DNA from: Thalassobaculum sp. OXR-137
GTDB lineage: Bacteria; Pseudomonadota; Alphaproteobacteria; Thalassobaculales; Thalassobaculaceae
Length of the DNA stretch: 64,000 nt
Direction of reading: 5' to 3'
Assembly: GCF_034377285.1 (NCBI RefSeq)
Contig: NZ_CP139715.1
Coordinates: 4,262,001-4,326,000, forward strand
The notes beneath the pieces were generated by a model that had not been told where the DNA came from, did no database searches, and was given only the letters and a program-made list of their open reading frames with translations. The position numbers and the translations under genes were made by a program. Below are positions 31,887 through 62,672 of this stretch, in pieces. Position 1 is the stretch's first letter, and each line of letters opens with the position of its first letter.

Positions 31887-31958
31887 GTCGTCCCGAACTT
31901 GTTTCGGGACCTTGATCTTTCCAAACGCCCGGAGGTCCCGAAACAAGTTCGGGATGAC
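31887..31958. repeat. GTCATCCCGAA-type inverted repeat
   Basis: Two 25-base arms (31887-31911 and 31934-31958) are inverted with one mismatch, starting gtcgtcccgaacttg and ending caagttcgggatgac. The loop is 22 bases. It is related to the palindromes at 38411-38456 and 40324-40358. It may act as a terminator between the two convergent genes. Confidence 0.7.
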
Positions 31959-34950: not shown

Positions 34951-35508
34951 ATGGCCCGACCCACCACCCCGCGCGAGGAGATCGTCGACAAGCTCGCCGA
35001 CGTATTCCGCCGGCACGGATACGATGGCGCCAGCCTGAAGCTGCTGTCCGATGCCACCGGGCTCGGCCGATCCAGCCTCTATCACTATTTCCCGAACGGC
35101 AAAGAGGATATGGCCCTCGCCGTCCTCGCCGGCGCCGAGCAGTGGATGGCGCAGGAAGTGGCCCCGCTGCTGCAGAGCGATGCCTCTCCACAGGAGAAGG
35201 TCCGAGGCCTGGTCGGTGCTCTCGATCGGTTCTATCTGGGCGGCAAACGCTCCTGCCTGCTGGAGCTTTTCGCCATCGGCGACGCCCGGACGGCGTTCGG
35301 GGCGCGGGTGGCGGAACGTCTGGCCAACCTGCGCACCGCCCTGGCCGGGGTCGCCCGGGAGGCGGGCCATCCGCCGGAGGAGGCCTTGCGCCGGGCGGAG
35401 GACGCGCTGATCGCAATCCATGGCGGGCTCGTGGTGTCCCGGGGCCTGGGAGACACCGCCCCGTTCCGGCGGGTTCTGGACAGGCTCGACCGCACCCTGA
35501 TCCTCTAG
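34951..35508 (+). CDS. TetR-family transcriptional regulator
   Basis: A 185-residue repressor. The N-terminal helix-turn-helix (residues 7-55) contains REEIVDKLADVFRRHGYDGA and GLGRSSLYHYFPNGKEDM, the typical TetR signature with the Y-x-Y-F recognition helix. The C-terminal ligand-binding half resembles TetR_C of the LfrR/YcdC-like group, with RSCLLELFAIGDAR. The ATG at 34951 follows aaaggagcgcagc. Matching palindromes before this gene and before the following glutathione transferase suggest that it controls both. Confidence 0.92.
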   Translation: MARPTTPREEIVDKLADVFRRHGYDGASLKLLSDATGLGRSSLYHYFPNGKEDMALAVLAGAEQWMAQEVAPLLQSDASPQEKVRGLVGALDRFYLGGKRSCLLELFAIGDARTAFGARVAERLANLRTALAGVAREAGHPPEEALRRAEDALIAIHGGLVVSRGLGDTAPFRRVLDRLDRTLIL

Positions 35509-38477: not shown

Positions 38478-39785
38478 CTACGCCGCCACCGGCTCCGTGC
38501 CGCACCAGTCGGCGATGAACAGGGCGATGGCCTTGGTCGACTCGCGAATCGACTGGATGCTCACCCGCTCGTCGAAGCCGTGCACGTTCTCCGCATGGGC
38601 GCCGTACACCAGGCACGGGATGCCCGCGTAGAGCACGAACACGCGGCTGTCGATATAGGCGGTGGCGATCCGCTCCTCGAGCGGCTTGCCGGACGCAGCC
38701 TCGTGCTGGCGCGCGAGGGTGAGTTCCGCCTCTGTCCCCGGCTCCAGGTCGTAGCCCTCGGTGAAGAAGCCGTTGAACTCGACCTCCGGCGGGCTGTTCG
38801 ACAGGAACGGGTGGTTGGCCGAGGCATTGCGGATCGTGTCCTCGATGTCGCGCGCCATCTCCTGGGGCTTGAAGCCCGGGAAGTAGGACACCCGGCAGTC
38901 GAAGGTGCACCACGCCGGCACCGAGGAGGCCCAGTCGCCGCCGACGATCTTGCCGACGTTCAGGTTCACCGGGTGCTTGGCGTCCTTGTAGTTCTTGGTC
39001 TCGCCCTTCTTGGCGTTCCAGCGGGCTTCCAGTTCCTTGAGGTCCTTCATGAGATCGTACGCCGCCATGATGGCGTTCGAACCGCTGCCGGCGGTCGCCA
39101 CATGGACCGGGAAGCCCCGCACATGCACCCGGAACCAGGTCACGCCCATGACGGCCCGGTTCACATGGCCGGAGGACGGCTCGCTGATCAGGCAGGCATC
39201 GGCGGTATAGCCGCGCACCAGCGTGGCGAGCGCGCCGTTGCCCGTGCTCTCCTCCTCGCAGACGCTCTCCAGATGCACCCGGCCTGCGGGCTGTACGCCG
39301 GCGGCCTTGAGCGCGTCGAGCGCGAACATGTTGGAAACCACGCCGGCCTTCATGTCGCCGGCCCCGCGGCCGTACATCCAGTCGCCCTCGATGCGCGGCT
39401 GGTAGGGCGGGCTGGACCACATGTCGAGGGGGCCTTCCGGCACCACGTCCACATGGCCGTTCAGCACCAGGGAGCGGCCGGTCTCGTTGCGCGGGCGGTG
39501 GGTGCCGACGACGTTCCACGCGTTCGCGTAGTCGACCTTGATCGGCGAGAAGCCTTCGTGGTGCTTGATGTCGTCCTCGCGGACCAGCCAGCGGTCGACC
39601 GCATAGCCGCGCTTGGCCATGGCTTCGGCCATGAGGTCCTGGGCGAGATGTTCCTGGCCGCGGATCGACGGACGGGAGACCAGCTCCTTGGTGAACTCGA
39701 TCTGGGCATCGAACGCGGCGTCGACCGCATCGGTGATGCGCTTGGCGAGGTCAGGGTCGAGTTTTCCGGGAGCGGAGGCAGTCAT
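38478..39785 (-). CDS. M20-family metallopeptidase / deacylase (ArgE/DapE type)
   Basis: A 435-residue zinc hydrolase. Metal ligands are in NGHVDVVPEGP (His, with the assisting Asp), GRGAGDMKAG (bridging Asp), CEEESTGNGA (catalytic and ligand Glu pair), and a C-terminal His in GAHAENVHGFDE. It would cleave an N-acyl group or peptide bond in the cytosol; acetylornithine or succinyl-diaminopimelate-like substrates are typical. The ATG at 39785 is preceded by GAAGGA. That ribosome site lies inside the 3' arm of a perfect 13-bp hairpin, which may restrict translation. Confidence 0.9.
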   Translation of the reverse strand: MTASAPGKLDPDLAKRITDAVDAAFDAQIEFTKELVSRPSIRGQEHLAQDLMAEAMAKRGYAVDRWLVREDDIKHHEGFSPIKVDYANAWNVVGTHRPRNETGRSLVLNGHVDVVPEGPLDMWSSPPYQPRIEGDWMYGRGAGDMKAGVVSNMFALDALKAAGVQPAGRVHLESVCEEESTGNGALATLVRGYTADACLISEPSSGHVNRAVMGVTWFRVHVRGFPVHVATAGSGSNAIMAAYDLMKDLKELEARWNAKKGETKNYKDAKHPVNLNVGKIVGGDWASSVPAWCTFDCRVSYFPGFKPQEMARDIEDTIRNASANHPFLSNSPPEVEFNGFFTEGYDLEPGTEAELTLARQHEAASGKPLEERIATAYIDSRVFVLYAGIPCLVYGAHAENVHGFDERVSIQSIRESTKAIALFIADWCGTEPVAA

Positions 39786-39836
39786 CGTACGATCCTTCAG
39801 CCATTTTGGGAGGGGGTCTGGCCGAAGGATCGTACG
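39786..39836 (-). promoter_or_regulatory. Leader hairpin sequestering the ribosome site of the M20 gene
   Basis: On the minus strand CGTACGATCCTTC and GAAGGATCGTACG form a perfect 13-bp inverted repeat around a 25-base loop, ending directly at the ATG (39785). The GAAGGA ribosome site is within the 3' arm. It could be a translational control element or a DNA operator. Confidence 0.6.
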
Positions 39837-39876
39837 GTGCGCGGCAAGCGCGCAAGACGCGGAAATCGAATTGGTA

Positions 39877-40203
39877 TCAGGCGGCGATATCGAGAAGCTG
39901 ACCGCGGCCCGAGCCGGCCGGGGGCGGCGGCGGGGTGGCGGTGGACGACGCGGTCTGGGACGTGCGGGTGTTGCCCGTTTCGGTCTCCTCGACCGCATTC
40001 GGCGTGATGTTGGTGGCCGCAGCCGACTGGGACGGGCCCTGGATGCGCACACCCTGGTTGCCGGCCTGCTGGGTGGCCTGGCTGCCGCCTTGGCCCGTGC
40101 CCTGCCCGCCGCTGGCGCCGGCGGCACCCGCCTGCAGGCCCTGAAGCTGGCTGAGGGCCTGGTAGCCCAAGCCGGTTCCGGATCCGATACCGCTGATCGC
40201 CAT
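39877..40203 (-). CDS. Hypothetical low-complexity protein (108 residues)
   Basis: A small protein beginning MAISGIGSGTGLGYQALSQL, continuing with Gly/Gln/Ser/Ala-rich low-complexity sequence (GGQGTGQGGSQATQQAG), then Thr/Glu/Pro-rich sequence with a run of five prolines, ending GQLLDIAA. There is no signal peptide, membrane segment or recognised domain. The start is well supported, with CAGGAGG eight bases before the ATG, and codon use is like that of its neighbours. It stands alone between the M20 peptidase and the ketopantoate-reductase-like gene. Function unknown. Confidence 0.65.
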   Translation of the reverse strand: MAISGIGSGTGLGYQALSQLQGLQAGAAGASGGQGTGQGGSQATQQAGNQGVRIQGPSQSAAATNITPNAVEETETGNTRTSQTASSTATPPPPPAGSGRGQLLDIAA

Positions 40204-40323
40204 GGGGCGTCCTCCTGGATACGTCTGTGTTGTTCTGAGCGGAGTATCGCCGGGCGGTCTAAAGATTCAGTAAACGCCGGAGCTATTTTTCGGTGGTGTT
40301 TGCCACGGATGCGCCCGCCCCTT

Positions 40324-40358
40324 CTTCGTCATCCCGAAACGAGTTCGGGATGACGAAG
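40324..40358. repeat. Short GTCATCCCGAA palindrome
   Basis: A perfect 15-bp stem cttcgtcatcccgaa / ttcgggatgacgaag with a 5-base loop lies downstream of the ketopantoate-reductase-like gene. It is a member of the intergenic palindrome family seen at 31887 and 38411 and a possible terminator. Confidence 0.7.
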
Positions 40359-40381
40359 GTCGGTAAATGCAGGACAGGCCC

Positions 40382-41356
40382 TCAATAACACCCCGCCGTG
40401 CGGCCCCGCATCTTCACCAGGCCGAGCACCATGTCGATGGTCGGGGTCGCCACGCCGGTCAGCCGGCCGAGCTCCTGGACGGAGGCGACCAGGGCGTCGA
40501 TCTCCATCGCCCGGCCGCGCTCCAGGTCCTGCAGCATCGACGTCTTGTGGGCGCCGACCGCCGCCGCTCCCTCGATCCGCTTGTCCACGTCGATGGCGAA
40601 CTTCACGCCCAGCGCTTCGCCGACCGCCTGGCCCTCCAGCATCATCGCCCGGGCCACCGCGCGGGTTTCCGGGTCGCCGCAGATCTGCTCAAGCGTGGCA
40701 CCGGTCAGCGCGCTGATCGGGTTGAAGGACAGGTTGCCCCACAGCTTCACCCAGATCTCGTCGCGGATGCGCGGCCGCACCGGCGCCTTCAGCCCGCCGG
40801 CCCGCATCGCCTCCGACAGCGCCTGCACGCGCCCGGTCTTCTCGCCCGACGGCTCGCCCAGGGTGAAGCGGTCGCCGTCCTGATGGGTGATCACCCCCGG
40901 CTCCTCGATCTCGCAGGCCGGATAGACCACGCAGCCGATGGCGCGCTCGGGGCCGAGCGTGTCCCACTGCACCCCGCCCGGATCCACACTTTCCAGCCGG
41001 GTGCCCTCCAGCTCGCCACCGAGACCGTGGAAATACCACCAGGGCACGCCGTTCACCGCCGTCACCAGGGACGTTTCTTCGTGGAACAGCGCCGTCATTT
41101 TCTTGGCGACCGCCGGCACGGAATGAGCCTTCAGCGCGACGATCACATGGTCCTGGGGGCCGAGTTCCGCCGGATCCTCCGACGCGTTGAGGCGCACCGT
41201 CTCCCGCGTGGCGTCCTGCAGCAGGGTCAGGCCGTTCTCCTTGATCGCCGCCAGGTGCGGACCGCGGGCCACCAGACTGACCTCGCAGCCAGCCCGCGCC
41301 AGGGCCACGCCGAGAAACCCGCCGATCGCCCCGGCGCCGTAGATGCAGACCCGCAT
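40382..41356 (-). CDS. 2-dehydropantoate 2-reductase family protein (ApbA/PanE)
   Basis: A 324-residue NADP-dependent reductase. The Rossmann motif GAGAIGG is at residues 7-13, SLVARG follows the second strand, and the catalytic region has RPRIRDEIWVKLWGNLSFNP, which holds the conserved Lys and Asn. True ketopantoate reductases are about 300 residues; many paralogues reduce other 2-oxo acids. No other pantothenate gene is near. The gene follows the acyl-CoA ligase by 3 bases, suggesting a catabolic rather than CoA-biosynthetic role. Confidence 0.82.
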   Translation of the reverse strand: MRVCIYGAGAIGGFLGVALARAGCEVSLVARGPHLAAIKENGLTLLQDATRETVRLNASEDPAELGPQDHVIVALKAHSVPAVAKKMTALFHEETSLVTAVNGVPWWYFHGLGGELEGTRLESVDPGGVQWDTLGPERAIGCVVYPACEIEEPGVITHQDGDRFTLGEPSGEKTGRVQALSEAMRAGGLKAPVRPRIRDEIWVKLWGNLSFNPISALTGATLEQICGDPETRAVARAMMLEGQAVGEALGVKFAIDVDKRIEGAAAVGAHKTSMLQDLERGRAMEIDALVASVQELGRLTGVATPTIDMVLGLVKMRGRTAGCY

Positions 41357-54800: not shown

Positions 54801-57800
54801 GGTGCCGTTCGTATTGCGGTTGGCGTCGACATCGAAGACCCCGACGTCGTTCCCGGCGCCGAGATCCACAGTATCCGCGCCAGAGCCGCCGGCCACCGTG
54901 TCGTTGCCGTCACCGGCGAGGATCCGGTCGTTGCCGGCACCGCCGGACAACGCGTCGCGGCCGCTTCCGGCGCTGATCGTGTCGTGGCCCGATCCGCCCT
55001 CGACCTGGTTGTCGCCATTGCCCGCGCGCAGCAGGTCGTTGCCGTCGCCGCCGGACAGGGTGTCGCGGCCGGAGCCGGTGCTGACGCTGTCGTCGCCGCT
55101 GCCCGCCGCCACGCTGTTGTTGCCGTCCCCGACCCGAATCGTGTCGTCGCCCGAGCCGGCGGAGACCGTGTCCGATCCCCCCGCCGCGCTGACGAAATCA
55201 TCGCCGGACCCGGCATCGATCCGGTTGGAGCCGCCGGCGCCATAGATCGTGTCGTCGCCTGACCCGGAGGAGATGACGTCGTCGTCCCGTCCGGCGCTCA
55301 CATAGTTGTCGCCGTCGCCGGCATCCACCGTGTTGCGCCCGTCGCCGACGACCAGACGGTCGTCGCCCGACCCGGCCGTCACCCGGTCGGAACCGGAGCC
55401 GGCGGTCACCTCGTTGTCGCCCCTGCCGACATCGATGTCGTTGTTGCCGTTCCCGGCCCGCACCGTGTCGTCGTCCTTGCCGGCGCGGATCGTGTCCGAG
55501 CCGGTGCCCGACGAGATCAGGTTCTCGCCGTCCCCGGCGACGACGCTGTTGTTGCCGTCGCCCGCCCGGATCGTGTCATCGCCCGAGCCCGCCGAGATCG
55601 TGTCCCAGCCAGAGCCGGCCGACAGCAGGTTGTCGCCGCCCCCCGCTTCCACCCGGTTCGCGCCCTCGCCGCCATAGATCGTGTCGTCACCGCTGCCGGC
55701 AGTAATGACGTCACCGTCCCGTCCGGCGCTCACATAGTTGTCGCCATCGCCGGCAGCGACGGTATTGCGACCGTCGCCGACGACCAGACGGTCGTCGCCG
55801 GAGCCTGCCGTCACCCGGTCGGAACCGGAGCCGGCGGTCACCTCGTTGTCGCCTCGGCCGACATCGATGTCGTTGTTGCCGGACCCTGCCCGCACCGTGT
55901 CGTCGTCCTTGCCGGCGCGGATCGTATCCGAGCCGGTGCCCGACGAGATCAGGTTCTCGCCGTCCCCGGCGACGACGCTGTTGTTGCCGTCGCCCGCCCG
56001 GATCGTGTCATCGCCAGAACCCGCCGAGATCGTGTCCCAGCCGGATCCGGCGCTGACGAAGTTATCGCCCGAACCAGCCTCGACCCGGTTCGAGCCGTCG
56101 CCGCCATAGATCGTGTCGTCGCCGGACCCGGAGGAGATGACGTCGTCGTCCCGTCCGGCGCTCACATAGTTGTCGCCGTCGCCGGCATCCACCGTGTTGC
56201 GCCCGTCGCCGACCACCAGACGGTCGTCGCCGGAGCCTGCCGTCACCCGGTCGTAGCCCGAACCGGCAGTCACCTCGTTGTCGCCTCGGCCGACATCGAT
56301 GTCGTTGTTGCCGTTGCCGGCCCGCACCGTGTCGTCGTCCTTGCCGGCGCGGATCGTGTCCGACCCGGTGCCGGACGAAATCAGGTTCTCGCCGTCCCCG
56401 GCGACCACGCTGTTGTTGCCGTCGCCAGCCCGGATCGTGTCGTCGCCAGAACCCGACGAGATCGTGTCGCTGCCCGAGCCAGCAGACAGCAGGTTGTCGC
56501 CGCCCCCCGCTTCCACCCGGTTCGCGCCCTCGCCGCCATAGATCGTGTCGTCACCGCTGCCGGCAGTAATGACGTCACTGTCCCGTCCGGCGCTCACATA
56601 GTTGTCGCCATCGCCGGCAGCGACGGTGTTGCGACCGTCGCCGACGATCAGCCGATCGTCCCCGGAGCCTGCCGTGACCCGGTCGGAACCGGAGCCGGCG
56701 GTCACCTCGTTATCGCCTCGGCCGACATCGATGTCGTTGTTACCATTGCCGGCCTGCACGGAATCGTCGTCGTTCCCAGTCCGCACCGTGTCGGAACCCG
56801 ACCCCGCCGTGATCTGGTTCTCGCCCTGACCGGCGGAGATGACGTTGTTGCCGTCGCCTGCGCGGATCGTGTCGTCGCCCGACCCGGCAGAGATCGTGTC
56901 GCTGCCCGAGCCGACAGAGAGCAGGTTGTCACCGCCTCCAGCCTCAACCCGGTTCGAGCCATCGCCGCCGTAGATCGTGTCGTCGCCGCCCTCGGCGCTG
57001 ATCACGTCGTTGTCGCGTCCGGCGCTCACAGAGTTGTCGCCGGAACCGGCATCCACCGTGTTGCGTCCGTCGCCGACAACCAGACGGTCGTCGCCCGATC
57101 CGGCCGTCACCCGGTCGGAGCCGGAGCCGGTACTGACCGTGTTATCGCCACCGCCGACATCGATGTCGTTGCTGCCGTTGCCGGCCCGCACGGAATCGTC
57201 CTCGTTGCCCGTCCGCACCGTATCGGCGCCGGAGCCTGCCGTGATCTGGTTCTCGCCCTGGCCGGCGGAGATGACATTGTTGCCGTCACCCGCGCGGATC
57301 GTGTCGTCCCCCGACCCGGCAGAGATGGTGTCGCTGCCCGAGCCGACAGAGAGCAGGTTGTCACCGCCTCCAGCCTCGACCCGGTTCGAGCCGTCGCCGC
57401 CATAGATCGTGTCGTCGCCGCTGCCGGCGCTGATCACGTCGTTGTCGCGGCCGGCGCTCACATAGTTGTTGCCGTCGCCGGCATCCACCGTGTTGCGCCC
57501 GTCGCCGACCACCAGACGGTCGTCGCCGGAGCCTGCCGTCACCCGGTCGTAGCCCGAACCGGCAGTCACCTCGTTGTCGCCCCTGCCGACATCGATGTCG
57601 TTGTTGCCGTTCCCGGCCCGCACCGTGTCGTCGTCCTTGCCGGCGCGGATCGTGTCCGAGCCGGTGCCCGACGAGATCAGGTTCTCGCCGTCCCCGGCGA
57701 CGACGCTGTTGTTGCCGTCGCCCGCCCGGATCGTGTCATCGCCCGAGCCCGCCGAGATCGTGTCCCAGCCAGAGCCGGCCGACAGCAGGTTGTCGCCGCC

Positions 57801-60800
57801 CCCCGCTTCCACCCGGTTCGCGCCCTCGCCGCCATAGATCGTGTCGTCACCGCTGCCGGCAGTAATGACGTCACCGTCCCGTCCGGCGCTCACATAGTTG
57901 TCGCCATCGCCGGCAGCGACGGTATTGCGACCGTCGCCGACGACCAGACGGTCGTCGCCGGAGCCTGCCGTCACCCGGTCGGAACCGGAGCCGGCGGTCA
58001 CCTCGTTGTCGCCTCGGCCGACATCGATGTCGTTGCTGCCATTGCCGGCCTGCACGGAATCGTCGTCGTTCCCAGTCCGCACCGTGTCGGAACCCGACCC
58101 CGCCGTGATCTGGTTCTCGCCCTGACCGGCGGAGATGACGTTGTTGCCGTCGCCTGCGCGGATCGTGTCGTCGCCCGACCCGGCAGAGATCGTGTCGCTG
58201 CCCGAGCCGACAGAGAGCAGGTTGTCACCGCCTCCAGCCTCAACCCGGTTCGAGCCATCGCCGCCGTAGATCGTGTCGTCGCCGCCCTCGGCGCTGATCA
58301 CGTCGTTGTCGCGTCCGGCGCTCACAGAGTTGTCGCCGGAACCGGCATCCACCGTGTTGCGTCCGTCGCCGACAACCAGACGGTCGTCGCCCGATCCGGC
58401 CGTCACCCGGTCGTAGCCTGACCCGGCACTGACCGTGTTGTCGCCGCCGCCGACATCGATGTCGTTGCTGCCATTGCCGGCCTGCACGTAATCGTCGTCG
58501 TTGCCCGTCCGCACCGTGTCGGAACCCGATCCGGCCGTGATCTGGTTCTCGCCCTGACCGGCGGAGATGACGTTGTTACCGTCGCCAGCCCGGATCGTGT
58601 CGTCCCCCGACCCGGCGGAGATCGTGTCGCTGCCCGAGCCGGCAGACAGCAGGTTGTCGCCGCCTCCGGCCTCGACCCGGTTCGAGCCGTCGCCGCCGTA
58701 GATCGTGTCGTCGCCGCCCTCGGCGCTGATCACGTCGTTGTCGCGGCCGGCGCTCACAGAGTTGTTGCCGGAACCGGCATCCACCGTGTTGCGCCCATCG
58801 CCGACGACCAGGCGGTCGTCGCCGGAGCCTGCCGTCACCCGGTCGTAGCCCGAACCGGCACTGACCGTGTTGTCGCCGCCACCGACATCGATGTCGTTGC
58901 TGCCATTGCCGGCCTGCACGAAATCGTCGTCGTTGCCCGTCCGCACCGTGTCGGAACCGGAGCCTGCCGTGATCTGGTTCTCGCCCTGACCGGCGGAGAT
59001 GACGTTGTTACCGTCGCCCGCCCGGATCGTGTCGTCGCCCGAACCCGCAGAGATCGTGTCGCTGCCCGAGCCGACCGACAGCAGGTTGTCGCCTCCCCCC
59101 GCTTCCACCCGGTTCGAGCCGTCGCCGCCATAGATCGTGTCGTCGCCGCCCTCGGCGCTGATGACGTCGTTGTCACGGCCGGCGCTCACATAGTTGTTGC
59201 CGGAACCGGCATCCACCGTGTTGCGCCCATCGCCGACGACCAGGCGGTCGTCGCCGGAGCCTGCCGTCACCCGGTCGTAGCCCGAACCGGCACTGACCGT
59301 GTTGTCGCCGCCACCGACATCGATGTCGTTGCTGCCATTGCCGGCCTGCACGAAATCGTCGTCGTTGCCCGTCCGGACCGTATCGGAGCCGGAGCCTGCC
59401 GTGATCTGGTTCTCGCCCTGACCGGCGGAGATGACGTTGTTACCGTCGCCCGCCCGGATCGTGTCGTCGCCCGAACCCGCAGAGATCGTGTCGCTGCCCG
59501 AGCCGACCGACAGCAGGTTGTCGCCTCCCCCCGCTTCCACCCGGTTCGAGCCGTCGCCGCCATAGATCGTGTCGTCGCCGCCGTCGGCAGTAATGACGTC
59601 ACCGTCCCGTCCGGCGCTCACATAGTTGTCGCCGTCCCCGGCAGCGACGGTGTTGCGACCGTCGCCGACGATCAGCCGATCGTCCCCGGAGCCTGCCGTC
59701 ACCCGGTCGGAACCGGAGCCACCGGTCACTTCGTTGTCGCCTCGGCCGACATCGATGTCGTTGTTGCCGTTGCCGGCCCGCACCGTGTCGTCGTCCTTGC
59801 CGGCGCGGATCGTGTCCGAGCCGGTGCCCGATGAAATCAGGTTCTCACCGTCCCCGGCGACCACGCTGTTGTTGCCGTCACCCGCCCGGATCGTGTCATC
59901 GCCAGAACCGGCGGAGATCGTGTCCCAGCCAGATCCGGCGCTGACGACGTTATCGCCCGAACCAGCCTCGACCCGGTTCGAGCCGTCGCCGCCGTAGATC
60001 GTGTCGTCGCCGCTGCCGGCAGTAATGACATCACCGTCGCGGCCGGCGCTCACATAGTTGTCGCCATCGCCGGCAGCGACGGTGTTGCGCCCGTCGCCGA
60101 CGATCAGCCGATCGTCCCCGGAGCCTGCCGTCACCCGGTCGGAGCCGGAGCCGGCACTGACGGTGTTGTCGCCGCCGCCGACATTGATGTCGTTGCTGCC
60201 GTTGCCGGCCCGCACGGAATCGTCGTCGTTCCCCGTCCGCACCGTATCGGAGCCGGAGCCCGCCGTGATCTGGTTCTCGCCCTGGCCGGCGGAGATGACG
60301 TTGTTGCCGTCGCCCGCCCGGATCGTGTCGTCCCCCGACCCGGTAGAGATCGTGTCCCAACCAGATCCGGCGCTGACGAAGTTGTCCCCGGAACCAGCCT
60401 CGAACCGGTTCGAGCCCTCACCGCCATAGATCGTGTCGTCGCCGCCCTCGGCGCTGATCACGTCGTTGTCGCGTCCGGCGCTCACATAGTTGTCGCCCGA
60501 ACCGGCATCCACCGTGTTGCGCCCGTCGCCGACGACCAGACGGTCATCGCCGGAGCCTGCCGTGACCCGGTCGGAACCGGAGCCGGCACTGACGGTGTTG
60601 TCGCCGCCGCCGACATTGATGTCGTTGCTGCCGTTGCCGGCCCGCACGGAATCGTCGTCATTGCCCGTCCGCACGGTGTCGGAGCCGGAGCCGGCCGTGA
60701 TCTGGTTTTCGCCCTGACCGGCGGAGATGACGTTGTTACCGTCACCCGCGCGGATCGTGTCATCGCCAGAACCAGCCGAGATCGTGTCGCTGCCCGAGCC

Positions 60801-62672
60801 GGCGCTGACGAAGTTATCGCCGCGCCCGGCATCGACGCGGTTGTTGCCTTGACCCGCCAAGATGCGGTCGTCGCCGGCGCCGGTCTCGATTGAATCATGG
60901 CCGGCACCGCCCGTGACGGTCTCGTCCTGGGTGCCGCTGCCAGTGCCGCCGCCGGGTGTGTTATGGCCCGAGGCCGGCGTCTCGGATCCGCCCGAGGTCG
61001 TGTCCTCCCCACCAGAAGTTGTGTCCGCACCGCCGTTGGTCGTGTCCTCACCAGACGAAACGGTGTCAGCGCCGCCGGAGGTCGTGTCTTCGCCCGACGT
61101 CACCGTGTCGGCACCGCCGGAGGTCGTGTCCTCACCCGACGTCACCGTGTCAGCACCGCCGGCGGTCCTGTCCTCACCCGACGTCACCGTGTCGGCGCCG
61201 CCGGAGGTCGTGTCCTCGCCGGACGTCACCGTGTCGGCGCCGCCGGAGGTCGTGTCCTCGCCGGACGTCACCGTGTCCGCACCGCCGGAGGTGGTGTCCT
61301 CGCCGGAGGTCACCGTGTCGGCACCGCCGGAGGTCGTGTCCTCGCCCGACGTCACCGTGTCGGCGCCGCCGGAGGTCGTGTCCTCGCCCGAGGTGACCGT
61401 GTCGGCGCCGCCGGAGGTCGTGTCCTCGCCCGAGGTGACCGTGTCGGCGCCGCCGGAGGTCGTGTCCTCGCCCGAGGTGACCGTGTCGGCGCCGCCGGAG
61501 GTCGTGTCCTCGCCGGACGTCACGGTATCCGCGCCGCCGGTGGGGGGAGCGGTCGGGTCCGTGGCGGGGCCGGAGAGCGGGCTGGTGCCGGTCTCGTCGA
61601 CCACGTCCTCGGTGCTGGTCCCCCGGGTGGTCGCCGCCGGCTCTGCGTCCCCGGCGGACTCTGTCGCCGACGAGGTGGTGCCGGTGGATCCCGTCTGGCC
61701 GCCGGTCTGCTGGCCTGTGGTCCCGCTGCGCGCGTTCGTACCGGTGCCGATGGCCGCATCCGTGCCCGCGTTGGTCCCGCCGATCCGGCCGTCATCCGCC
61801 GTCGAGCCGGAGTCGCCGTCGATCCGCCGGGCGGTGGTATCCCGCGCCGGCTCCCCGGTGTCCCGAGCATCCGCCTCAGAGCCGGCCGAAGCGCGTTGTT
61901 GCGGCCCAGCCTGGACGGCACCGTCGCCGCCGGCCCCGCCGCCCAGCCCATCGGATGCCGCGCCGCCGAGGACGGAGGTGGCGCCGCCTCCCGTGCCGTC
62001 GCTCGCCCCGCCATTGCCGGCCCCGGCCTCGGTGGTGCCGGGCTGCTGTGCCGGCGCCTCGCCGCTCGCGGACTCGCCGCCGTCAGGCTGCGCCCCGCCC
62101 CCGGCATCCGCCGCAGGCCGGCCCGAGGCGGTGGCCGCCAGATCGCCGGAGCCTGCAGCCCCCGAGGCTACGCCGCCGGTATCGCCGGCGCCGGTATTCT
62201 GGCCCGAATTCTGCTGTCCGCCGCTGCCGGCCGGTCCGTCGCCGGTCGGGGCGCCGCGCTCGTTGCCGCCGATCCGGCCTTCGCCGCGATCGCCGCCGCC
62301 ACGTTCGCCACCGTCGCGTCCTCCGCGTGCCTGGTCGTTGCCGCCCTGGGCCTGGGACTCGCCGCTTTCGTTCTGTCGCTCGGAGTCGGAGCCGCGGCCG
62401 GTACGCCGTGCCTCGGCCTCGCGGACGCTCACATCCTCGTTCTGGACGGTGCGCCGGTCCGTCTGCTCGACGGTGGACGTGTCCGGGTTGCGCTGGGAGC
62501 CGAGATGGACGTTGCCGTCGGCCGATCGGGGATCGTCTCCCTGGCCGCCGGTGCCCGACGAGTCGCCCTCGTTCGCGCCGGGACGCTGTCCCCGCGGCGA
62601 TTCCTGAGTCGAGCCGCGTTCGCCGTTGCCGGTACCCGCTTCGGCGTCCTGGTCCAGTCTATCGTCGGCCAT
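51819..62672 (-). CDS. Giant RTX protein, 3,617 residues, putative type I secreted adhesin
   Basis: The largest gene here. Start ATG 62672, preceded by GGGGGGG. Layout: 1-375 low-complexity Gly/Thr/Asp/Gln; about 375-565 thirteen 14-residue repeats; about 580-2480 thirteen 144-residue units, each 16 RTX-type nonapeptides; about 2610-2870 RTX remnants and a beta-sandwich-like segment (VTVSDADREDSISRAEVRIE); about 2880-3060 an 18-residue RTX array; about 3065-3260 linker and beta segment; about 3265-3525 a 36-residue RTX array; last 90 residues very acidic and Gly-rich, a possible secretion signal. RTX repeats fold as calcium-bound beta-rolls after export. No signal peptide, cysteines, enzymatic domain or LapA-like retention module is recognised. 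The secretion operon lies convergently. Confidence 0.9.
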   Translation of the reverse strand: MADDRLDQDAEAGTGNGERGSTQESPRGQRPGANEGDSSGTGGQGDDPRSADGNVHLGSQRNPDTSTVEQTDRRTVQNEDVSVREAEARRTGRGSDSERQNESGESQAQGGNDQARGGRDGGERGGGDRGEGRIGGNERGAPTGDGPAGSGGQQNSGQNTGAGDTGGVASGAAGSGDLAATASGRPAADAGGGAQPDGGESASGEAPAQQPGTTEAGAGNGGASDGTGGGATSVLGGAASDGLGGGAGGDGAVQAGPQQRASAGSEADARDTGEPARDTTARRIDGDSGSTADDGRIGGTNAGTDAAIGTGTNARSGTTGQQTGGQTGSTGTTSSATESAGDAEPAATTRGTSTEDVVDETGTSPLSGPATDPTAPPTGGADTVTSGEDTTSGGADTVTSGEDTTSGGADTVTSGEDTTSGGADTVTSGEDTTSGGADTVTSGEDTTSGGADTVTSGEDTTSGGADTVTSGEDTTSGGADTVTSGEDTTSGGADTVTSGEDRTAGGADTVTSGEDTTSGGADTVTSGEDTTSGGADTVSSGEDTTNGGADTTSGGEDTTSGGSETPASGHNTPGGGTGSGTQDETVTGGAGHDSIETGAGDDRILAGQGNNRVDAGRGDNFVSAGSGSDTISAGSGDDTIRAGDGNNVISAGQGENQITAGSGSDTVRTGNDDDSVRAGNGSNDINVGGGDNTVSAGSGSDRVTAGSGDDRLVVGDGRNTVDAGSGDNYVSAGRDNDVISAEGGDDTIYGGEGSNRFEAGSGDNFVSAGSGWDTISTGSGDDTIRAGDGNNVISAGQGENQITAGSGSDTVRTGNDDDSVRAGNGSNDINVGGGDNTVSAGSGSDRVTAGSGDDRLIVGDGRNTVAAGDGDNYVSAGRDGDVITAGSGDDTIYGGDGSNRVEAGSGDNVVSAGSGWDTISAGSGDDTIRAGDGNNSVVAGDGENLISSGTGSDTIRAGKDDDTVRAGNGNNDIDVGRGDNEVTGGSGSDRVTAGSGDDRLIVGDGRNTVAAGDGDNYVSAGRDGDVITADGGDDTIYGGDGSNRVEAGGGDNLLSVGSGSDTISAGSGDDTIRAGDGNNVISAGQGENQITAGSGSDTVRTGNDDDFVQAGNGSNDIDVGGGDNTVSAGSGYDRVTAGSGDDRLVVGDGRNTVDAGSGNNYVSAGRDNDVISAEGGDDTIYGGDGSNRVEAGGGDNLLSVGSGSDTISAGSGDDTIRAGDGNNVISAGQGENQITAGSGSDTVRTGNDDDFVQAGNGSNDIDVGGGDNTVSAGSGYDRVTAGSGDDRLVVGDGRNTVDAGSGNNSVSAGRDNDVISAEGGDDTIYGGDGSNRVEAGGGDNLLSAGSGSDTISAGSGDDTIRAGDGNNVISAGQGENQITAGSGSDTVRTGNDDDYVQAGNGSNDIDVGGGDNTVSAGSGYDRVTAGSGDDRLVVGDGRNTVDAGSGDNSVSAGRDNDVISAEGGDDTIYGGDGSNRVEAGGGDNLLSVGSGSDTISAGSGDDTIRAGDGNNVISAGQGENQITAGSGSDTVRTGNDDDSVQAGNGSNDIDVGRGDNEVTAGSGSDRVTAGSGDDRLVVGDGRNTVAAGDGDNYVSAGRDGDVITAGSGDDTIYGGEGANRVEAGGGDNLLSAGSGWDTISAGSGDDTIRAGDGNNSVVAGDGENLISSGTGSDTIRAGKDDDTVRAGNGNNDIDVGRGDNEVTAGSGYDRVTAGSGDDRLVVGDGRNTVDAGDGNNYVSAGRDNDVISAGSGDDTIYGGDGSNRVEAGGGDNLLSVGSGSDTISAGSGDDTIRAGDGNNVISAGQGENQITAGSGADTVRTGNEDDSVRAGNGSNDIDVGGGDNTVSTGSGSDRVTAGSGDDRLVVGDGRNTVDAGSGDNSVSAGRDNDVISAEGGDDTIYGGDGSNRVEAGGGDNLLSVGSGSDTISAGSGDDTIRAGDGNNVISAGQGENQITAGSGSDTVRTGNDDDSVQAGNGNNDIDVGRGDNEVTAGSGSDRVTAGSGDDRLIVGDGRNTVAAGDGDNYVSAGRDSDVITAGSGDDTIYGGEGANRVEAGGGDNLLSAGSGSDTISSGSGDDTIRAGDGNNSVVAGDGENLISSGTGSDTIRAGKDDDTVRAGNGNNDIDVGRGDNEVTAGSGYDRVTAGSGDDRLVVGDGRNTVDAGDGDNYVSAGRDDDVISSGSGDDTIYGGDGSNRVEAGSGDNFVSAGSGWDTISAGSGDDTIRAGDGNNSVVAGDGENLISSGTGSDTIRAGKDDDTVRAGSGNNDIDVGRGDNEVTAGSGSDRVTAGSGDDRLVVGDGRNTVAAGDGDNYVSAGRDGDVITAGSGDDTIYGGEGANRVEAGGGDNLLSAGSGWDTISAGSGDDTIRAGDGNNSVVAGDGENLISSGTGSDTIRAGKDDDTVRAGNGNNDIDVGRGDNEVTAGSGSDRVTAGSGDDRLVVGDGRNTVDAGDGDNYVSAGRDDDVISSGSGDDTIYGAGGSNRIDAGSGDDFVSAAGGSDTVSAGSGDDTIRVGDGNNSVAAGSGDDSVSTGSGRDTLSGGDGNDLLRAGNGDNQVEGGSGHDTISAGSGRDALSGGAGNDRILAGDGNDTVAGGSGADTVDLGAGNDVGVFDVDANRNTNGTDSYQGGSGRDTLRVEVSSDRLEGNAGDDLFALKDHFQDIRDGLADSETSRSFDGLDLTIDSFEDVQFVVDGAVADLNRGPVVTGVQPVSLSIGEDGGFDGATVGGGRNASDLAVGSGAADGSPGSIALLSQVTVSDADREDSISRAEVRIENLGGAGTVTVGTGIGGITASVATQEDGSVVVTFEGDAPPSRYTEALRSVSLSLSETPSGDSEARISVVVEDEHGARNEAATADLAIDDDRPEPVEGDGADTLSGGGAHDTLTGGAGADTLSGGAGDDTLSGGAGNDTVSGDAGGDTLSGGAGNDSVSGDAGGDTLSGGAGNDTVSGDAGGDTLSGGAGNDTVSGDAGGDTLSGGAGNDTVSGDAGGDTLSGGSGNDTVSGDAGGDTLSGGAGNDSVSGDAGSDTLSGGAGNDTVSGDAGADTLTGGAGNDTLSGDAGEDSPAPQEDGNDLLVGGNGSDRLYGGSGADTLYGGENDDYLDGGSGADTMIGGNGRDTFMATDGDRITDYETQDVVRINASVGGDNVVLNSNGTTTEVSIDLDGDGQGDGAFSLDGDFASVTTSTNGETTDLRFGAGPNGAGNGSGGADYVDTGSSNNGAGGSGSDEEIARERFSSGRGGGRGGIVSGAAPVGPAPQAGNEGERLNGSHGNDLLSGGSGDDTLNGGNGSDTLSGGAGNDSLDGSHEADSLQGGAGDDTLKGGNGLDTLSGGAGNDRLEGSHDADLLDGGAGNDTLSGGNGLDTLSGGAGDDKLEGSHDADRLDGGAGNDTLSGGNGLDTLSGGAGDDKLEGSNDADRLDGGAGNDTLSGGNGLDTLSGGAGNDRLEGSQDADQLDGGEGNDTLSGGNGADTLSGGAGDDFLDGSNDSDQMVGGDGNDTLSAGNGRDTVAGGDGDDTLIGGNDDDVLYGGDGADEDAALFAEVESGGAEQSQDWVSLSEDAGGDTITDGGEGAGAGESGDGAGDGWNDGDSGGGDTGGGTPAGEDLDDNMQVAGFG
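52170..52830 (-). repeat. C-terminal RTX array, 36-residue (108-bp) period
   Basis: About six copies of a four-nonapeptide unit (GGNGLDTLS, GGAGNDRLE, GSHDADLLD, GGAGNDTLS) recur every 108 bases, for example gtgtcgttgcccgcc near 52390, 52498 and 52606. All ladder positions are Asp, the canonical calcium-binding form. Confidence 0.9.
53500..53970 (-). repeat. RTX array, 18-residue (54-bp) period
   Basis: About eight copies of GGDTLSGGAGNDTVSGDA recur exactly every 54 bases (gtgtcgccgcc at 53641, 53695, 53749 and so on). Each unit is two nonapeptides, one beta-roll turn, with Asp at both ladder positions. Confidence 0.9.
55240..60856 (-). repeat. Thirteen tandem 432-bp units in the RTX gene
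   Basis: The codons for the IYG-type strand (tagatcgtgtcgtc on the plus strand) occur thirteen times from about 55243 to 60427, each exactly 432 bases apart. Each unit is 144 residues or sixteen nonapeptides. No unit is shorter or longer. Two sequence subtypes alternate irregularly along the array. The ladder residue runs Asp, Asp, Asn, Asn through all units. Confidence 0.92.
61005..61550 (-). repeat. N-terminal array, 14-residue (42-bp) period
   Basis: About thirteen copies of GGADTVTSGEDTTS, nearly identical at DNA level (gaggtcgtgtcctcgcc, ending accgtgtcggcgccgcc), encode a Thr/Ser/Asp/Gly-rich stretch. It is not an RTX nonapeptide; one unit reads EDRTA in place of EDTTS and the last units drift. 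Confidence 0.9.

Follow-up and report, generated by a model that had tools for sequence, protein, structure and literature searches.

A strong conserved hairpin over the ribosome-binding site of an M20 peptidase gene in Thalassobaculum: a possible fold-back silencer of read-through mRNA

Ribosome-binding sites that are hidden or exposed according to where transcription starts have been described in phages. In the T4 genes e, soc, 49 and I-TevI, an RNA helix hides the ribosome-binding site; for e and I-TevI, late promoters lie immediately upstream and give rise to translated transcripts from which the 5′ part of the structure is missing (PMC3014915, PMC2988022). In gene e the structure lowers synthesis 100-fold, and mobE of phage Aeh1 is a further case of start-dependent sequestration (PMC3014915, PMC2988022). 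If an internal transcription start exists, the leader of a bacterial M20 peptidase gene may work like the T4 cases. The mechanism is a known one; the member and the lineage are new, and among the literature matches listed for Thalassobaculum none concerns the M20 leader by its title.

The DNA analysed (the window) is a stretch of 64,000 nucleotides from Thalassobaculum sp. OXR-137 (contig NZ_CP139715.1, positions 4,262,001 to 4,326,000 of the forward strand), whose genome comprises 5.65 Mb in three contigs. The features that matter here all lie on the minus strand and are given in the order in which a transcript would meet them:

39877..40203, minus strand: open frame of 108 aa, rich in Gly, Gln and Ala; ends 91 bases upstream of the M20 gene
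39850..39855, minus strand: TTGCGC, possible weak −35 element; first bases of the conserved block
39838..39854, minus strand: HP1, small hairpin UGCGCG-N5-CGCGCA; a single base (C) separates it from HP2
39829..39834, minus strand: TACGAT, possible weak −10 element within the 5′ arm of HP2; spacer 15
39819..39836, minus strand: HP2 5′ arm, CGUACGAUCCUUCGGCCA; its outer 13 bases (39824-39836) are invariant in four species
39804..39818, minus strand: HP2 loop, GACCCCCUCCCAAAA, 15 nt and C-rich; 15-16 nt in relatives, with the C-rich run kept
39786..39803, minus strand: HP2 3′ arm, UGGCUGAAGGAUCGUACG; its final base is −1 of the ATG
39793..39798, minus strand: Shine-Dalgarno GAAGGA, read from the sequence, entirely within the HP2 3′ arm
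38478..39785, minus strand: M20 family ArgE/DapE-type deacylase, 435 aa (NCBIfam PRK06837 subfamily, 644.6 bits; Pfam Peptidase_M20)

The leader carries a real, strong and conserved lock on the ribosome-binding site, of a known kind. Its main element, HP2, is an 18-bp hairpin in which the arm 39836-39819 pairs with the arm 39803-39786. The 13 outer pairs are perfect: CGTACGATCCTTC (39836-39824, minus strand) is the exact complement of GAAGGATCGTACG (39798-39786), and the latter directly adjoins the M20 ATG (39785-39783). The inner stem contains a single G-U (17 Watson-Crick pairs plus 1 G-U overall), and in the window sequence the stem is uninterrupted by bulges or internal mismatches. A preliminary description of the locus had reported a perfect hairpin of 13 bp whose 3′ arm holds the Shine-Dalgarno and ends at the AUG. 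That description was accurate in each respect (GAAGGA is inside the arm and the arm ends at base −1), and the stem is even longer than was claimed: 18 pairs with a 15-nt loop.

The M20 product looks metabolic. One relative (L051) has a 12-nt insertion immediately after the M20 ATG that is in frame, whereas the length changes of the hairpin (49, 50, 51 and 51 nt in four species) are not multiples of three, which shows this ATG to be the right start codon. The 108-aa frame upstream has no Pfam or NCBIfam match. Besides the window, it stands next to the M20 gene in three of 68 fetched orthologue loci (68 of 69 were surveyed, L118 being left out, and some flanks were short), and these are the same three that have the hairpin; since this co-occurrence is confined to one clade, it may reflect one event. 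In two loci of a related genus (L055 and L057), the M20 gene is preceded by a same-strand frame that ends 81 and 95 bases before it, and the hairpin is absent, so neither an upstream neighbour nor read-through by itself requires one. A search of 39600-40400 gave no terminator, which makes read-through from the 108-aa gene plausible.

The presence of HP2 over the M20 ribosome-binding site is not a chance structure. Folded in isolation, the hairpin has −32.8 kcal/mol (z −9.3 relative to dinucleotide shuffles), and the fold of the whole leader has a z of −6.8. When the upstream bases were shuffled and the ribosome site was held fixed, none of 20,000 shuffles reached 13 Watson-Crick pairs (the largest had 12), in line with the earlier statement that such a stem is not expected by chance. 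According to the folding model, opening bases −15 to −1 of the M20 start costs 28.7 kcal/mol, above every one of 353 other predicted starts of the same genome (median 7.6, maximum 24.1), and the earlier expectation that the stem should block initiation agrees with this modelled cost. The model gives 27.9-30.9 kcal/mol for the three relatives that have the hairpin and 6.3-8.3 kcal/mol for five orthologues that lack it (L053-L057).

The genomic background was drawn from 354 genes called by our own script, with starts as predicted, in 464 kb of the same genome, made up of the window and 20 further stretches. Stems over the ribosome site of these genes match the shuffled expectation up to 10 pairs, and stems of 8-10 pairs were therefore taken as chance; three of the 354 lie above that length (M20, L134 and L128). 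At least 13 Watson-Crick pairs cover the ribosome site in only two, the M20 gene and L134:15327; the latter is a palindromic repeat with a loop of 4 nt, and its predicted start is doubtful. Perfect inverted repeats of at least 13 bp with a loop of at most 60 occur 14 times in the 464 kb.

Several other repeats and stems were seen along the way. Palindromic repeats at 31887-31958 and 40324-40358 share GTCATCCCGAA, which matches the window 3 times where 0.07 would be expected; these are perhaps a dispersed palindromic element or terminators. Elsewhere in the genome, two long palindromes starting with ACTCCCCGGATT (L121:15154-15264 and L122:6148-6226, with arms of 28 and 22 bp) are possibly members of a dispersed repeat family. 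Large tandem repeats at 54886-61540 (a 432-bp period in 13.3 copies and a 42-bp period in 12.4 copies) probably lie within the gene of a long repetitive protein, perhaps an RTX-like one. An ankyrin-repeat gene (L128:17711) has its predicted start in a stem of 15 pairs, 12 of them Watson-Crick and 3 G-U, with a loop of 20 nt; this stem exceeds the shuffled expectation.

The sequence, conservation and uniqueness of the M20 hairpin are matters of direct observation. Six genomes of the genus were compared: the hairpin is present in all four that have the M20 gene (window included), while G001 and G005 (1.5-Mb, without a close orthologue) count neither for nor against. The preliminary description had raised the possibility that the pairing might not be conserved; it is kept in all four of these close relatives. 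The conserved block begins abruptly at TTGCGC (base −70) and extends to the ATG, and conservation is poor between the stop codon of the upstream gene and TTGCGC. From TTGCGC to the HP2 loop there is no length change in four species, and variable columns of the block are rarer among paired positions (5/48) than among unpaired ones (9/21; Fisher p 0.007). The stem of HP1 is kept across the relatives, although L051 has lost the outer pair; the HP1 loop is variable. A CTTGC...GCCGC string resembling HP1 seems to be present about 70 bases before the same M20 gene in the related genus (L055-L057).

Outside the genus, the hairpin is absent from all 64 orthologous starts examined; this survey covered 67 of 69 loci, the two others being L118 (33% identity), which was omitted, and L058, for which no start codon was obtained. 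Of the other stems seen at those starts the longest, in L104, comprises 9 Watson-Crick and 4 G-U pairs. On neither strand of its own genome does the 13-base arm recur with one mismatch or fewer. A covariance model of the leader, searched against 61 genomes, returned the four known copies and their mirror strand, and otherwise only matches with E of 0.147 or weaker (with stricter filters). A hairpin in Tistrella mobilis (L059, upstream of 5001), with 10 pairs (3 of them G-U) of different sequence over the Shine-Dalgarno, was considered as a convergent case and is not claimed, because its opening cost of 12.5 kcal/mol falls inside the background range.

The reading that we tentatively prefer, with a rough probability of 0.42, is that the M20 leader is a fold-back silencer of read-through mRNA and that productive mRNA starts inside the 5′ arm. 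Transcripts that include the 5′ arm, chiefly those from the 108-aa gene, would fold into the 18-bp stem; the stem would bury the Shine-Dalgarno up to the AUG, leaving the long transcript untranslated. Expression of M20 would then depend on transcripts without the 5′ arm. These could come from a weak promoter, TTGCGC-15-TACGAT, with its −10 element within the 5′ arm, which would place the mRNA start near base −38 and leave the ribosome site free. The fold, its blocking strength and the relief given by a start located downstream of roughly −40 are modelled: shifting the 5′ end from −52 first to −40 and then to −38 lowers the predicted opening cost from 28.8 to 8.0 to 5.1 kcal/mol, the last value being close to that of an ordinary gene, and an RNA starting 6-8 bases past TACGAT is predicted to free the site. 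The purpose of the device, like read-through and the internal promoter, is inferred. The start-dependent reading is preferred because shifting the 5′ end cuts the opening cost and because TTGCGC-15-TACGAT is conserved, a thermometer and a leader frame being disfavoured; a transcript start inside the 5′ arm may belong to the mechanism itself.

The candidate promoter counts against this fold-back reading. It was picked by eye and is poor against consensus (3/6 bases in TTGCGC, 4/6 in TACGAT, spacer 15), and a strict promoter scan found no promoter in the leader. A promoter model built by expectation maximisation from 221 upstream regions of the same genome converged on a coding-like motif, which is uninformative, and did not pick TTGCGC-15-TACGAT. 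Conservation of the HP1 stem, which promoter elements do not account for, also counts against the fold-back reading.

A different possibility is that all M20 mRNA has the full hairpin and that a protein, a small RNA or an RNase III cut opens it, perhaps acting through the conserved C-rich loop or HP1. Several features are consistent with such a switch: the C-rich run of the loop is kept in four species despite variation in loop length, HP1 is conserved too, and the conserved block has no clear promoter. However, opening would need about 29 kcal/mol in the model, the element is single-copy, and no Rfam family matches the leader (a search of Rfam 15 at gathering score gave no match, and two chance microRNA matches fell far below, with E of 3.7 and 4.1). 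The lack of a second arm site in the genome (again with at most one mismatch) likewise speaks against it, since a small RNA complementary to 12 of the 13 arm bases is therefore absent. We consider this switch unlikely, although it survives better than the other alternatives. Its most ambitious form is a two-hairpin RNA element private to Thalassobaculum, in which an 18-bp lock and a C-rich, anti-Shine-Dalgarno-like loop would be served by a dedicated trans-acting opener and make the amidohydrolase responsive to a signal, an undescribed riboregulatory route; we regard that form as distinctly improbable.

Both of these readings suppose that the hairpin functions at the RNA level, which is probable. 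The arms could instead be an operator pair, as the preliminary description had allowed: a transcription factor would bind the inverted arms, which overlap the candidate promoter and the ribosome site, and repress transcription. In favour of this, the arms are nearly perfect, invariant dyads, HP1 is likewise a 17-bp dyad, and there is a TetR-type gene (34951-35508) at a distance of 4.3 kb. Against it, the start-to-start distance of the arms is 38, 37, 36 and 38 bp in the four species, so that the half-sites are not at a fixed spacing and the DNA helical phase is not kept. The arm has no other copy in the genome at the same mismatch limit, which argues against a regulon (a regulator with a single target would fit too), and no regulator gene is directly adjacent. 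The 3′ arm runs right up to the AUG, and the complementarity continues inward by way of sense-strand wobble pairs, which break a DNA dyad: the two inner pairs that vary without loss of pairing are G-U when read in the sense RNA, and an antisense RNA would have A-C there.

The drift in arm spacing, the inner G-U pairs of the sense strand, the greater variation of the loop and the end of the 3′ arm at the AUG together point towards RNA pairing, and an operator appears less likely; we rate it as somewhat more doubtful than a switch opened in trans. The evidence is not all on one side. Two of the four sequences lack the innermost pair (column 48 with 64), which counts against RNA, and identical arms are equally expected from a strict operator with a single target. 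Compensatory change, which the preliminary description had proposed looking for among relatives, did not materialise: none of 24 pairs changes on both sides in the four species, because the four sequences are too alike and the arms hardly vary. In T. litoreum the innermost pairs are perhaps replaced by a different 5-pair run past a one-base bulge; the alignment is ambiguous there and the case was not counted.

The remaining explanations can be treated briefly. The genome does carry scattered palindromic repeats, and an inert or selfish palindrome might sit at the start codon by accident; this is very improbable for a single copy found at the same place in four genomes, with 26 of 26 outer-arm bases identical across the four species against 91 of 212 fourfold sites of M20 (43%) unchanged. 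A mobile palindrome was also considered and rejected, as there is one copy per genome and none in viral contigs. So was a leader peptide, an N-terminal extension or translational coupling: a TTG frame crosses the hairpin in four species, in three phases and with different stops. The suggestion that ribosome transit opens the stem is not supported as far as a conserved upstream frame is concerned, this being the only open frame that crosses the hairpin in all four. An RNA thermometer is the least credible reading of all, and the earlier idea that temperature might be the opener is not supported: the Shine-Dalgarno is indeed masked, but the modelled site stays more than 99% paired from 4 to 65 °C, and the stem is, as noted above, free of bulges and internal mismatches.

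Among described bacterial systems, the protection of IS10 and Tn5 against outside transcription also relies on fold-back, in that read-through RNA folds and hides the transposase start; the M20 locus differs in being single-copy and chromosomal, without a transposase or mobile element. RNA thermometers such as ROSE and fourU hold the Shine-Dalgarno in a hairpin, whereas HP2 is too stable, has no weak spots and finds no match in Rfam. Translational riboswitches have a structured leader and a masked ribosome site as well; the M20 leader shows no aptamer-like conserved unpaired core, competing stem or Rfam match. If the fold-back reading is right, the M20 case warns against taking every hairpin that masks a ribosome site for a sensor.

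The T4 genes remain the closest comparison. As far as the cited articles describe them, their Shine-Dalgarno is buried in a stable stem on long transcripts, as it is predicted to be in the M20 leader, and loss of the 5′ arm frees the ribosome site, as the model suggests for M20 (PMC3014915, PMC2988022). The 5′ half of the M20 stem, too, lies where the gene's own promoter would be if the candidate is real, so that short transcripts would escape. The two differ in that the T4 promoters and 5′ ends were mapped and the effect measured, whereas the M20 promoter is a weak candidate. Because the stem is so strong, measured expression of M20 would reveal productive 5′ ends, and the case is easy to test. 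The T4 examples are phage genes, whereas M20 belongs to a free-living bacterium and has the look of a metabolic gene. If the fold-back reading is right, the T4 late-gene strategy of silencing messages that start too far upstream would be under strong selection in a bacterial chromosome, at a metabolic-looking gene.
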